Source of the DNA: Rhodobacter sp. SY28-1
GTDB lineage: Bacteria > Pseudomonadota > Alphaproteobacteria > Rhodobacterales > Rhodobacteraceae
Length of the DNA: 64,000 nt
Assembly: GCF_005222785.1 (NCBI RefSeq)
Contig: NZ_STGH01000003.1
Coordinates: forward strand, 434,001 to 498,000
Reading direction: 5' to 3'
Positions 519-2,798 of this stretch are shown here, piece by piece (within the stretch, counting starts at the first letter, position 1; every line of letters begins with the position of its first letter). The notes beneath the pieces are model-generated. The model ran no database searches. It was not told the DNA's origin and worked only from the letters and a program-made list of their open reading frames with translations. The position numbers were made by a program, and so were the translations under genes.

Positions 519-878
519 TCAGGCGCCGGGCGCGTCGCGGAACTTGATCGATTCCCCGCAGCCGCAAGCCTCGACCACATTGGGATTGCGGAACTTGAAG
601 CCGCTTTCCACAAGGCCGGTTTCATAGTCGATCTCGGTGCCGATCAGGAACATCTGGGCCATGGGCGCGATCATCACCCGCGCGCCGTCCTGTTCCACCA
701 CCTCGTCCAGCGGATTGATCGCGGTGACGTATTCCATCGTGTATTCCATCCCCGCACAGCCGCCCTTCTTGACGCCGATGCGCAGGCCCTGGCTGCCTTC
801 GCGCGCCATGAGCCGGGCGATCTGGCCGGTTGCAGCGGGGGTCAGGGTGACAGCGGCTTTGCCGGGAATGCCGAACAT
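519..878 (-). CDS. sufA: HesB/IscA-type iron-sulfur cluster assembly protein (SufA-like)
   Basis: A-type Fe-S carrier of 119 residues, the usual length. The three conserved cysteines are visible: one in GGCAGMEY and two in the C-terminal CGCGES motif, which ligate an iron or cluster for transfer to apoproteins. In related bacteria this gene usually follows sufT at the end of the suf operon. Here sufT lies at 2421-2798, with the satD and DUF3307 genes between them, and this gene starts 23 bases after the DUF3307 stop. The choice between SufA, IscA and ErpA is by context only. Confidence 0.9.
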   Translation of the reverse strand: MFGIPGKAAVTLTPAATGQIARLMAREGSQGLRIGVKKGGCAGMEYTMEYVTAINPLDEVVEQDGARVMIAPMAQMFLIGTEIDYETGLVESGFKFRNPNVVEACGCGESIKFRDAPGA

Positions 879-901: not shown

Positions 902-1717
902 TTAAGGTGTCTGCGCCGGAATTCCAAGCGGGGGCAGATGACCAAGTGCGGCGACGGTCGCGAAGGAGACGACAAGGGCCCAGCCGAACGAGGCAAGCGT
1001 GCCGATGATGACATATTCGGACAGGGCGCGATCCTCTTTCACCGCGCCGTAGCGCAGGATCGACTTGGCGGCCATCAGCAGGCCCACGCCCTGCGGCTGA
1101 CCGATGAGGACAAGGACGAAGATCAGCCCGCGTTCTAGTAGGCCGATCAACCGGCCCGCCCCGGGCAGACCCTCGGCGGCGATGTCGGCCGGAAGGTTTG
1201 CAGCGAAAGGCTGCATCAGAAGCCCGACCGCGAAGCCGCCGGTGCGGGTGGCGAGGATGAGGCCGGTCAGCAGGACCATCAGCGACGGGAGCTGGCTGAC
1301 GGGCAGCGGCACCGCTTCGGACCAGAGGCCGGTCCCCAGGATGCCGCCGTCATCGCCGGTCACGATGGCTCCGGGAGCCCAGAAGCCGTTGGCCCAGAGG
1401 TCGGGAAGCCAGAGGGCGAGGGTGATGAGGGTGGCAAGGTGCAGGGACTGGTCGATCAGGAACGGTGCCAGGCCGCCCGAGGTTTTCCAGACCGAGACCA
1501 GGACCAGCTTGCCGACGTCGATCGCGATATGGACAAGGGCCAGCACCAGAAGTGCCGGATGCAGCGATCCGGTGGCGGCGACGGCGGTTGCGTAGACGAT
1601 GACGAGGTGCAGGCCCAGCGCCAAGGGAGTGCGCTTGTTGGCCACCATCCAGTTGGTCTGGAACACGAAATCGGCGAGGGTGTGGGCGAAAAGGAGGGCG
1701 ATGAAGGTTTCAGTCAT
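902..1717 (-). CDS. DUF3307 family integral membrane protein
   Basis: Polytopic inner-membrane protein of 271 residues with several hydrophobic helices. It opens with MTETFIALLFAHTLADFVFQ, the N-terminal signature of DUF3307, whose biochemical role I do not know. The start overlaps the end of satD by 8 bases (1710-1717), so the two are probably translationally coupled and act together. Polar residues (His, Asp, Gln) in the first helix are typical of the family and could line a pore or a binding site. A membrane effector or transporter controlled by the SatD protein is a reasonable inference, not an observation. Confidence 0.8.
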   Translation of the reverse strand: MTETFIALLFAHTLADFVFQTNWMVANKRTPLALGLHLVIVYATAVAATGSLHPALLVLALVHIAIDVGKLVLVSVWKTSGGLAPFLIDQSLHLATLITLALWLPDLWANGFWAPGAIVTGDDGGILGTGLWSEAVPLPVSQLPSLMVLLTGLILATRTGGFAVGLLMQPFAANLPADIAAEGLPGAGRLIGLLERGLIFVLVLIGQPQGVGLLMAAKSILRYGAVKEDRALSEYVIIGTLASFGWALVVSFATVAALGHLPPLGIPAQTP

Positions 1718-2330
1718 CGGCGGCTTTCAGTTCGGCTTCGAAGGCAGAAACGACCGCCTTTATGTCCCACCAGTTTGCGCCCTGCAATCTGTAGCTGGCC
1801 GCTGCCGGGCTTATGCCGAGCGACTGCGCTATGGAAAGACCTGACGGCTCGTCCAAGGCCAGAGCCATCACCATGGCTTCTGCCTGTTGCGGGGTCCACT
1901 TCCGGGCTACCTGATCGGCCAGTCGCGCCGCAGCCGAGGTGATCGCACCAAGCTGTCGGGTGGTGCTTGCAATCGCAAACTCTGCCCGCCTGGGCATCTG
2001 GTCCAGCGTCTCGCCCGAGAGCACGAAGGCGTTGCCTGTTTCGGCCCCAAGCGACGGTGCACGGTCAGTCGCAATCTCGGCGATACCGATGCCGAAGCGT
2101 GTCAACGGGGCGTTCTGCGCGCGCAGGCGGGCCGTCACGATCAGGGCGAAACGCAGGGCCAGTTCTGGCCGCACCAGGAGAGCCTGCCAGCCGTCGCCGC
2201 GATATCGAGTGAAAGGCGCAGCAAACTGGCCTGCCGTGTCGGCAATGGCAGCAAGCGCACGGTCAGTGGCTTGCTGCCCGGACTTTCGCGAGCCAATCAG
2301 ATCGCCGGTCAGGACTGCTGCGTCGCTCAT
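1710..2330 (-). CDS. SatD family protein: cyclase-like palm domain plus helix-turn-helix
   Basis: Cytoplasmic protein of 206 residues. Residues 5-15 (AVLTGDLIGSR) and 42-50 (RYRGDGWQA) look like the two metal-aspartate elements of a class III nucleotidyl cyclase palm (D10, D46). They are followed by RFGIGIA at 78-84 and a GNAFVLSGETL block near 99-109, again in cyclase order. Residues about 145-200 read as a helix-turn-helix. The ATG at 2330 is chosen over an upstream in-frame codon at 2366 because it begins exactly at the conserved domain. It is the first gene of a pair with DUF3307. Catalytic activity is inferred from motif layout only; SatD family proteins have no function I can state firmly. 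Confidence 0.75.
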   Translation of the reverse strand: MSDAAVLTGDLIGSRKSGQQATDRALAAIADTAGQFAAPFTRYRGDGWQALLVRPELALRFALIVTARLRAQNAPLTRFGIGIAEIATDRAPSLGAETGNAFVLSGETLDQMPRRAEFAIASTTRQLGAITSAAARLADQVARKWTPQQAEAMVMALALDEPSGLSIAQSLGISPAAASYRLQGANWWDIKAVVSAFEAELKAADD

Positions 2331-2368
2331 GACGCATCGTTTAGCATGCCAAGAGCTGAACTTCAAAG

Positions 2369-2416
2369 AAATTCAGCTTTAAGGCTTAAATAGATGCAAT
2401 TTCAGCTTGAAGGCTT
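2369..2416 (-). promoter_or_regulatory. Repeat-rich upstream region of satD (possible operator)
   Basis: Two near-identical 16-base direct repeats, TTCAGCTTTAAGGCTT (2372-2387) and TTCAGCTTGAAGGCTT (2401-2416), start 29 bases apart. The second contains the dyad TTCA-GCT-TGAA. An AGCTGAA / TTCAGCT inverted pair (2354-2360 and 2372-2378) overlaps the first copy. The region is strikingly AT-rich compared with its surroundings and lies between satD and sufT, as expected for an operator of the SatD-DUF3307 pair, possibly bound by SatD through its own helix-turn-helix. Confidence 0.5.
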
Positions 2417-2420
2417 TACT

Positions 2421-2798
2421 CTACATGAACCCCAGTTCGAGCCGGGCTTCATCGGACATCATGTCCATGCCCCAGGGCGGGTCGAAGGTCATGTTGACGT
2501 CGACGTGTTTCACCCCCGGCAGGGGTTCGACCGCATTGGCAACCCAGCCTGGCATCTCTCCGGCGACGGGGCAGCCAGGTGCGGTCAGGGTCATGGTGAT
2601 CTCGACCTCGTTCTCGGGGCCGATCTCGATCGTGTAGACGAGGCCCAGATCGAAGATGTTGACCGGGATTTCCGGGTCGAACACCGTGCGGCAGGCCTCG
2701 ACGATCTCGGGGTAGAGCGGATGATCGGTCGAAGAGGGCTTGATCAGCGGCTGGCCCTCGGTCGGGCCCGCCGTCTGGACGGAGGTCTGGTCCTGCAT
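2421..2798 (-). CDS. sufT: SUF system Fe-S cluster assembly protein SufT (DUF59/MIP18 family)
   Basis: Small protein of 125 residues consisting of a divergent N-terminal tail of about 25 residues and a DUF59 domain with DPEIPVNIFDLGLVY and the TAPGCPVAG loop carrying the conserved cysteine. The family takes part in Fe-S maturation. It lies upstream of the satD-DUF3307 pair and the sufA-like gene on the same strand. The other suf genes are not in the window, because the gene upstream of it is ssb. Confidence 0.9.
   Translation of the reverse strand: MQDQTSVQTAGPTEGQPLIKPSSTDHPLYPEIVEACRTVFDPEIPVNIFDLGLVYTIEIGPENEVEITMTLTAPGCPVAGEMPGWVANAVEPLPGVKHVDVNMTFDPPWGMDMMSDEARLELGFM

Follow-up and report, generated by a model that had tools for sequence, protein, structure and literature searches.

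A SatD-like palm protein and its DUF3307 membrane partner form a conserved two-gene module with a putative role in nucleotide signaling

In this study, we analyzed a 64,000-nucleotide stretch of the Rhodobacter sp. SY28-1 genome (RefSeq assembly GCF_005222785.1, contig NZ_STGH01000003.1, positions 434,001 to 498,000; hereafter, the window), in which a gene for a SatD-like protein is followed by a gene for a DUF3307 membrane protein, referred to here as the partner. We propose, with a probability of about one half, that these genes constitute a self-regulated nucleotide-signaling module in which SatD would act as the enzyme. This reading is based on the confidently predicted cyclase-like fold of SatD, the conservation of its metal site, the operon pairing of the two genes, the linkage of the C-terminal half of the partner to SatD and a repeat array upstream of satD. 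An earlier note on the same DNA had described the pair as a self-contained, Pycsar-like cyclase and membrane effector unit inserted between two Fe-S genes.

Results

Pairing of satD and the partner gene

The two reading frames overlap by 8 bases, from the ATG of the partner (1717-1715) to the stop codon of satD (TGA, 1712-1710), as the earlier note had described. Genome contigs were scanned with a profile of the partner only, made from an alignment without SatD; at least 597 stretches matched, and 586 of these encoded relatives. We retained the best 80 of the 586 loci, and in all 80 satD was located directly upstream on the same strand. The same arrangement was found in seven of the eight viral contigs with a partner, the remaining one (L067) being without satD. 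In most pairs, the gap or overlap between the two genes did not exceed 10 bases; the maximum gap was 249. Among 198 genomes of the taxonomic family of the window (the source of all genome and locus sets called "family" below), 39 had a SatD match, 38 of which were strong. The partner adjoined satD in all 38 strong matches (30 + 8 loci), running off the contig in L011 and L240; the weak 39th match (G137, E 7e-4) is outside this count. On plasmids, the partner accompanied satD in 5/5 records of one set and in all four records opened from a second set of seven, and the other three records, from Agrobacterium, had it beside the SatD gene. The four SatD matches obtained at the phylum level all had a partner, and pairs were present on plasmids of Haloplanus, Halorientalis and Natronosalvus and in a Fusobacterium record. 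These comparisons indicate that SatD and the partner are a two-gene module common to several bacterial phyla and haloarchaea, and bear out the partner relation proposed in the earlier note at the level of the genes.

The pair also makes up two of the five annotated genes of pEC34A, a 3,770-bp E. coli plasmid, the others encoding Rop, MobA and a 51-residue hypothetical protein. The pEC34A proteins (L271, 1792-3481) matched the SatD and partner profiles with 96 and 132 bits, respectively, and an additional stretch of about 60 residues separates the two domains of the partner. The pair was also present on near-identical plasmids from Klebsiella. The pEC34A DNA occurred in seven plasmid records, and a near search found it in none of 5,426 complete E. 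coli genomes.

SatD has a cyclase-like palm fold with a conserved metal site

The satD gene begins with ATG at 2330. An alternative TTG upstream would add 12 residues; the ATG is favored, because the TTG start would overlap the repeats described below. The window protein matched Pfam SatD (PF16264) with 29.8 bits, barely above the cut-off of 29, over residues 12-183, helix-turn-helix (HTH) included. Two alignments were made, of 86 SatD sequences and of 82 family sequences, both containing the window protein and hence giving 167 distinct sequences; at E<=1, Pfam SatD was matched by 63 of the 86 and left 23 unmatched. The AlphaFold2 model of SatD (predicted local distance difference test score, pLDDT, 94.3; predicted template modeling score, pTM, 0.92) showed a palm fold, the nearest structures in the Foldseek and VIA matches being class III cyclases, in agreement with the earlier reading of a cyclase-like protein.

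The motifs read previously, LTGDLIGS (D10), RGDGWQA (D46) and RFGIGIA, are all present in the window protein. D10 and D46 align with the metal-binding Asp residues of class III cyclases, on strand 1 and the strand 2-3 hairpin. Both were kept in 167/167 sequences (86/86 and 82/82 in the two sets), and both were also readable in the haloarchaeal and Fusobacterium proteins. Their loss in homologues, which the earlier note had named as a refuting outcome, was thus not seen, and neither were its other two, a model lacking a palm and an absence of conserved pairing. D10, G45, D46, Q49, S105 and G106 were invariant in the 86 sequences, with R44 in 85/86. Among the 82 family sequences, G9, D10, G45, D46, W48 and G106 were invariant, while Q49 (81/82), S105 (75/82) and R44 (65/82) were less strict. 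The GG[DE][DE]F motif was absent from the hairpin in the 86 + 82 sequences, which have RGDxFQ or RGDGWQ instead, and the match of SatD to the GGDEF profile was weak (2.4e-3). The HTH noted previously after the palm was matched weakly in the window protein (residues 166-185, E 0.17); sigma-70 region 4 was matched by 47 of the 86 aligned proteins at E<=1, with a best value of 6.7e-6. Taken together, the alignments and the confident model place SatD among the palm proteins of the class III cyclase/GGDEF/Cas10 superfamily; it has kept both metal-site Asp residues and has an HTH attached.

The C-terminal half of the partner is linked to SatD

The partner matched Pfam DUF3307 (PF11750) with 59.9 bits (cut-off 23), as did all of the 86 aligned partners at E<=1, and its model consisted of helices only (pLDDT 87.6). 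Invariant residues among these 86 were found in the DUF3307 domain (H12, Q20, H63, D67, F86 and Q90) and also in the C-terminal half (G188, I191, G192, E195, R196, A216, K218, R222, E234, Y235, G239 and S243), which lies beyond the Pfam match.

The comparison covered 94 partners from the family, of which 82 occur with satD, six lie without satD in the suf slot (between sufT and sufA, see below) and six are DUF3307 proteins elsewhere. They were drawn from 30 satD loci, L039-L044, L163 and 57 places among 151 DUF3307-bearing genomes; these 57 places are mostly frames of at least 220 residues, and the ratio of the classes is therefore not a frequency. Two partners with satD end at a contig border before the C-terminus; in the other 80, K218, R222 and Y235 were each kept in 80/80 and E234 in 79/80. 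In the satD-less suf-slot partners, the eight DUF3307 residues were intact (48/48), but R222 and Y235 were each found in 0/5 and E234 in 1/5, L231 being unalignable there. E195 and R196 were still present (5/5), and K218 was present in 5/5 in one alignment and 3/4 in the MAFFT alignment. The latter, covering four of the six proteins, agreed on R222 (0/4) and Y235 (0/4). At one of these loci, L241, the contig begins 386 bases before the partner match, and the loss of satD there rests on finding no SatD C-terminus. The opposite pattern was seen at L019 and L239, which have satD: the DUF3307 residues were damaged, and the C-terminal ones intact. On a tree of the suf genes (a quick tree, 7/92 branches starred), five satD-less partner holders need four changes, at least three of them forced by starred branches, which indicates repeated decay of the C-terminal half. 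Moreover, partners consisting solely of the C-terminal part occur in Sphingomonas parapaucimobilis, Agrobacterium, Natronosalvus and L056. Since R222 and Y235 decay without satD while DUF3307 stays, and C-terminal-only partners exist, it is the C-terminal domain that is linked to SatD, whose association with DUF3307, as a passenger or an output, is separable. The earlier pairing of SatD with a DUF3307 gene thus holds, but the linked part is the C-terminal half rather than the DUF3307 domain.

Two other family loci, L045 and L046, encode DUF3307-only proteins (frames of 182-187 residues) that adjoin a long frame, ABC transporter-like by reading, and no SatD was found there. These appear to represent another use of the DUF3307 domain.

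A repeat array with constant pitch often precedes satD

The repeat-rich promoter mentioned in the earlier note consists, in the window, of a 19-nt direct repeat with a pitch of 29 and 89% identity, together with an 11-nt inverted repeat. We examined 150-bp upstream regions for a direct repeat with at least 14/18 matches at an offset of 28 or 29. This was found in 103 of 185 satD regions (family, 30/82; genome and viral contigs, 63/85; hand-picked others, 10/18). In the same 185 regions, other offsets gave far lower numbers (18/19, one; 23/24, none; 33/34, one; 38/39, none; 27/30, seven), and only eight upstream regions of 1094 neighboring genes passed. None of six satD-less suf slots passed, the best having 11/18 matches. 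The repeat units are palindromic: palindromes numbered 2.04 per satD region versus 0.39 in shuffles, and chains of two or more palindromes at 27-30 bp were present in 52/185 regions versus 0/185 shuffled ones. The distance between palindrome centers was most often 14 (118 versus 0.2 expected), the value expected if inverted half-sites alternate within the array. The units differ by lineage, reading GTTACCATATTTGGTAAC in Proteus, TTAAGCCTATAGACTTAA in Balneolaceae and TATTAGC..GCTAATA in Aureispira, and the pitch of 28-29 bp is constant. The region upstream of the pEC34A satD has palindromes, with an array just under the threshold (13/18). The 103 arrays, the HTH matches and the pEC34A copy support the self-contained unit with its own DNA-binding domain and promoter that had been suggested previously.

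Chromosomal slot and mobile copies

The gene order is sufT-satD-DUF3307-sufA in 70 of the 82 family loci with satD; in 11 others a suf gene flanks the pair on one side, and in one no suf flank was seen in the sequence retrieved. Among 28 relatives lacking satD that were selected from the family, 16 have sufT and sufA within 154 bp, and five have them 299-1195 bp apart, one of these being L163 with DUF3307 between; in the remaining seven, no sufA was seen up to 1.5 kb from sufT. On the suf tree, the pair label requires 22 changes, no fewer than shuffled labels, and the history of the pair may be one of repeated loss, or of repeated exchange in one slot. The window pair (902-2330) and that of the same genus in L023 share 40% identity for SatD but 79% for the partner, so that SatD either evolves or undergoes exchange at a much higher rate than the partner. 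Two family satD matches each have one in-frame stop (G086, C5:2534-3139; G134, C1:930460-931062) and are possibly decaying copies. Outside the suf slot, two neighbor-gene clusters were each found in 16 loci, mostly of Flavobacterium, and in L096 the pair is flanked by an HMGL-like gene on one side and a dihydroorotate dehydrogenase gene on the other. In a Chromohalobacter (L104, 8438-9085), the next gene upstream of the pair encodes a GGDEF diguanylate cyclase, and a GGDEF gene is near it on a Salinivibrio plasmid (L061, 4757-5929).

Neither protein matched a PADLOC family at E<=1, without a check of which Pycsar models PADLOC includes. In a comparison of 36 of 88 contig loci, defense-model matches were not richer near the pair (15 model lines/71 near genes versus 49/71 far genes). 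On a Sphingomonas insulae plasmid (L059, 4944-12434), the pair adjoins a Pycsar effector family gene and a cyclase gene, with TIR and ImmA/IrrE genes near. In the viral contigs L065 and L071, where it is possibly phage cargo, the genes found at distances of up to about 5 kb encode a terminase in one case and tail-fibre, ParB-like and transposase proteins in the other. The coordinates of the features in the window are summarized in Table 1.

Table 1. Features of the satD module and its flanking genes in the window
Feature	Position	Strand	Basis
satD-like gene, 206 aa, palm and C-terminal helix-turn-helix	1710..2330	-	Pfam SatD, AlphaFold2 model
SatD palm domain, ~residues 1-125, order E-H-E-E-H-E-H-E	1956..2330	-	model and structure matches
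D10 codon	2301-2303	-	
D46 codon	2193-2195	-	
SatD C-terminal helical region with HTH, ~residues 145-206	1713..1898	-	profile and model
DUF3307 membrane protein, 271 aa, SatD partner	902..1717	-	Pfam DUF3307, all-helical model, hydropathy
N-terminal DUF3307 domain, ~residues 1-107, four hydrophobic helices; H12, D16, Q20, H37, H63, D67, Q90, H93	1397..1717	-	
C-terminal SatD-linked domain, ~residues 184-257; G188, I191, G192, E195, R196, K218, R222, E234, Y235	947..1168	-	
Operator-like repeat array: copies 2398-2416 and 2369-2387, inverted half-site 2354-2364	2354..2416	.	
SufT/SUF-associated gene, flank outside the module	2421..2798	-	TIGR02945, 147 bits
SufA/IscA-like gene, flank outside the module	519..878	-	Pfam Fe-S_biosyn, TIGR00049

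Discussion

In the nucleotide-signaling module that we favor, SatD dimers would regulate their own operon by binding to the array, and the palm would convert nucleoside triphosphates to a nucleotide signal. This signal, or SatD itself, may act on the C-terminal membrane domain of the partner, which would in turn switch either the DUF3307 domain fused to it or the membrane. Several observations weigh against this proposal. The transition-state Asn and Arg of class III cyclases sit in a VNxAxR helix; at the corresponding SatD positions, matched approximately by extending the alignment a few residues, Asn was found at 110 in 2/86 and Arg at 114 in 8/86 sequences, and Arg at 114 in 24/82 family sequences. 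Because neither is conserved, we call SatD a cyclase-like palm protein rather than a class III cyclase. The Lys of Ma1120, which has a role with adenine, faces SatD position 42, where 54/86 sequences have Ile. As for the partner, no fold match was obtained at E<=0.001 in the PDB or among viral models, its helix 208-225 is weakly hydrophobic, and the haloarchaeal Natronosalvus partner is without R196 and the EY pair. An array at the threshold is missing from 82 of the 185 satD regions, covariation of site and recognition-helix similarity was seen in one of two analyses, the first having been null, and distances gave no evident joint vertical descent of SatD and the partner.

A possible but somewhat doubtful alternative is that SatD is a nucleotide-sensing transcription factor that makes no messenger, the palm binding or slowly hydrolyzing a nucleotide, and that SatD is held or released by direct contact with the C-terminal domain of the partner, as in regulators sequestered at the membrane. 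In palms with a purely sensory role, the metal Asp residues are often lost. Both are, however, invariant in the 167 aligned SatD sequences and extend to the haloarchaeal and Fusobacterium proteins, which argues against this explanation.

The pair may, rather tentatively, be considered an antiphage system of the Pycsar or Panoptes type, in which a nucleotide signal would change upon infection and the membrane protein would kill the cell or arrest it. The plan of a palm and a membrane protein, the fast change of SatD, the few other genes of pEC34A, the two viral contigs and the plasmid copy beside Pycsar effector, cyclase and TIR genes are consistent with it. On the other hand, the PADLOC result and the defense-model comparison lend no support to the Pycsar kinship suggested in the earlier note; in addition, one chromosomal slot is common to many relatives, and the all-helical partner is unlike the Panoptes effector.

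It seems unlikely that the module is a chromosomal stress or envelope regulator, in the sense of the SatD name (secretion and acid tolerance), with the mobile copies as side branches. The suf flanks of the family loci and the two recurrent, mostly Flavobacterium, clusters would suit such a role, as would the satCDE-ffh cluster, which an S. mutans paper states to be implicated in translocation and acid tolerance. The title cited there, however, credits Ffh, and the patchy distribution of satD in the family, the 22 changes on the suf tree and the presence of the pair as cargo of small plasmids also speak against it. A recent chance insertion between the suf genes, which would make the pairing meaningless, is very improbable despite the adjacency of sufT and sufA in satD-less relatives, and as an account of the pairing it is refuted by the common suf slot and the pairs elsewhere. 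The insertion indicated in the earlier note is not borne out as a recent event.

A bolder version of the favored signaling module, which we regard as a long shot, is a DNA-anchored nucleotide-signaling class distributed across bacteria and archaea. SatD dimers would line up on phased, alternating half-sites with a spacing of about 14 bp, and the DNA array itself would determine how the palm enzyme assembles and how active it is. The receptor for the signal would be a new membrane domain, formed by the C-terminal half of these DUF3307 proteins. Transcription and signal would both be switched when the array is lost or becomes occupied, an invading element being one possible cause. If so, the module would be a self-contained guard that a 3.8-kb plasmid can carry.

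The module shares parts with known families and systems. PF16264, with S. mutans satCDE, is the sequence family of the first gene, HTH included; in the literature searched it carries an acid-tolerance label only, and no description of a palm fold, partner domain or array was found there. PF11750 corresponds to the N-terminal domain of the partner, but not to the SatD-linked half, and DUF3307-only proteins occur without SatD. The class III cyclases Ma1120, Rv1900c and PycC are similar to SatD in palm fold, element order and the two metal-site Asp residues; SatD differs in its unconserved transition-state residues, its own conserved Q49, S105 and G106, its HTH and its paired membrane gene. Pycsar, which comprises PycC and PycTM according to PMC11224242, also couples a gene for a cyclase-fold protein to one for a membrane protein, whereas the SatD module has no PADLOC match, carries an HTH and a repeat array, and is no more than a candidate for an antiphage role. 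Panoptes (OptS/mCpol and OptE) is likewise a two-gene operon for a small palm protein and a membrane partner. Its effector, as described in excerpts of the Panoptes papers, has two transmembrane helices and a beta-rich S-2TM-beta domain, in contrast to the partner, whose all-helical model is without the beta-rich domain of OptE; SatD, moreover, carries an HTH, and its nearest relatives in structure are the class III cyclases. The main text of those papers, in the parts available, names neither SatD nor DUF3307. In a search from which subscription papers and preprints were mostly absent, DUF3307 appeared in one paper, in a phage gene table, and no article joined SatD with a nucleotide cyclase, or with an HTH and a cyclase.

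SatD and DUF3307, families without a biochemical function in the literature found, thus turn out to be parts of one module. The present analysis supplies its coupling domain, candidate residues (D10 and D46 in SatD; K218, R222, E234 and Y235 in the partner) and a recurrent operator-like geometry, and the natural copy on pEC34A opens the module to tests in E. coli. If the palm is active, the module would be another nucleotide-signaling system; if it is inactive, it would be a membrane-linked regulator built from the cyclase fold.
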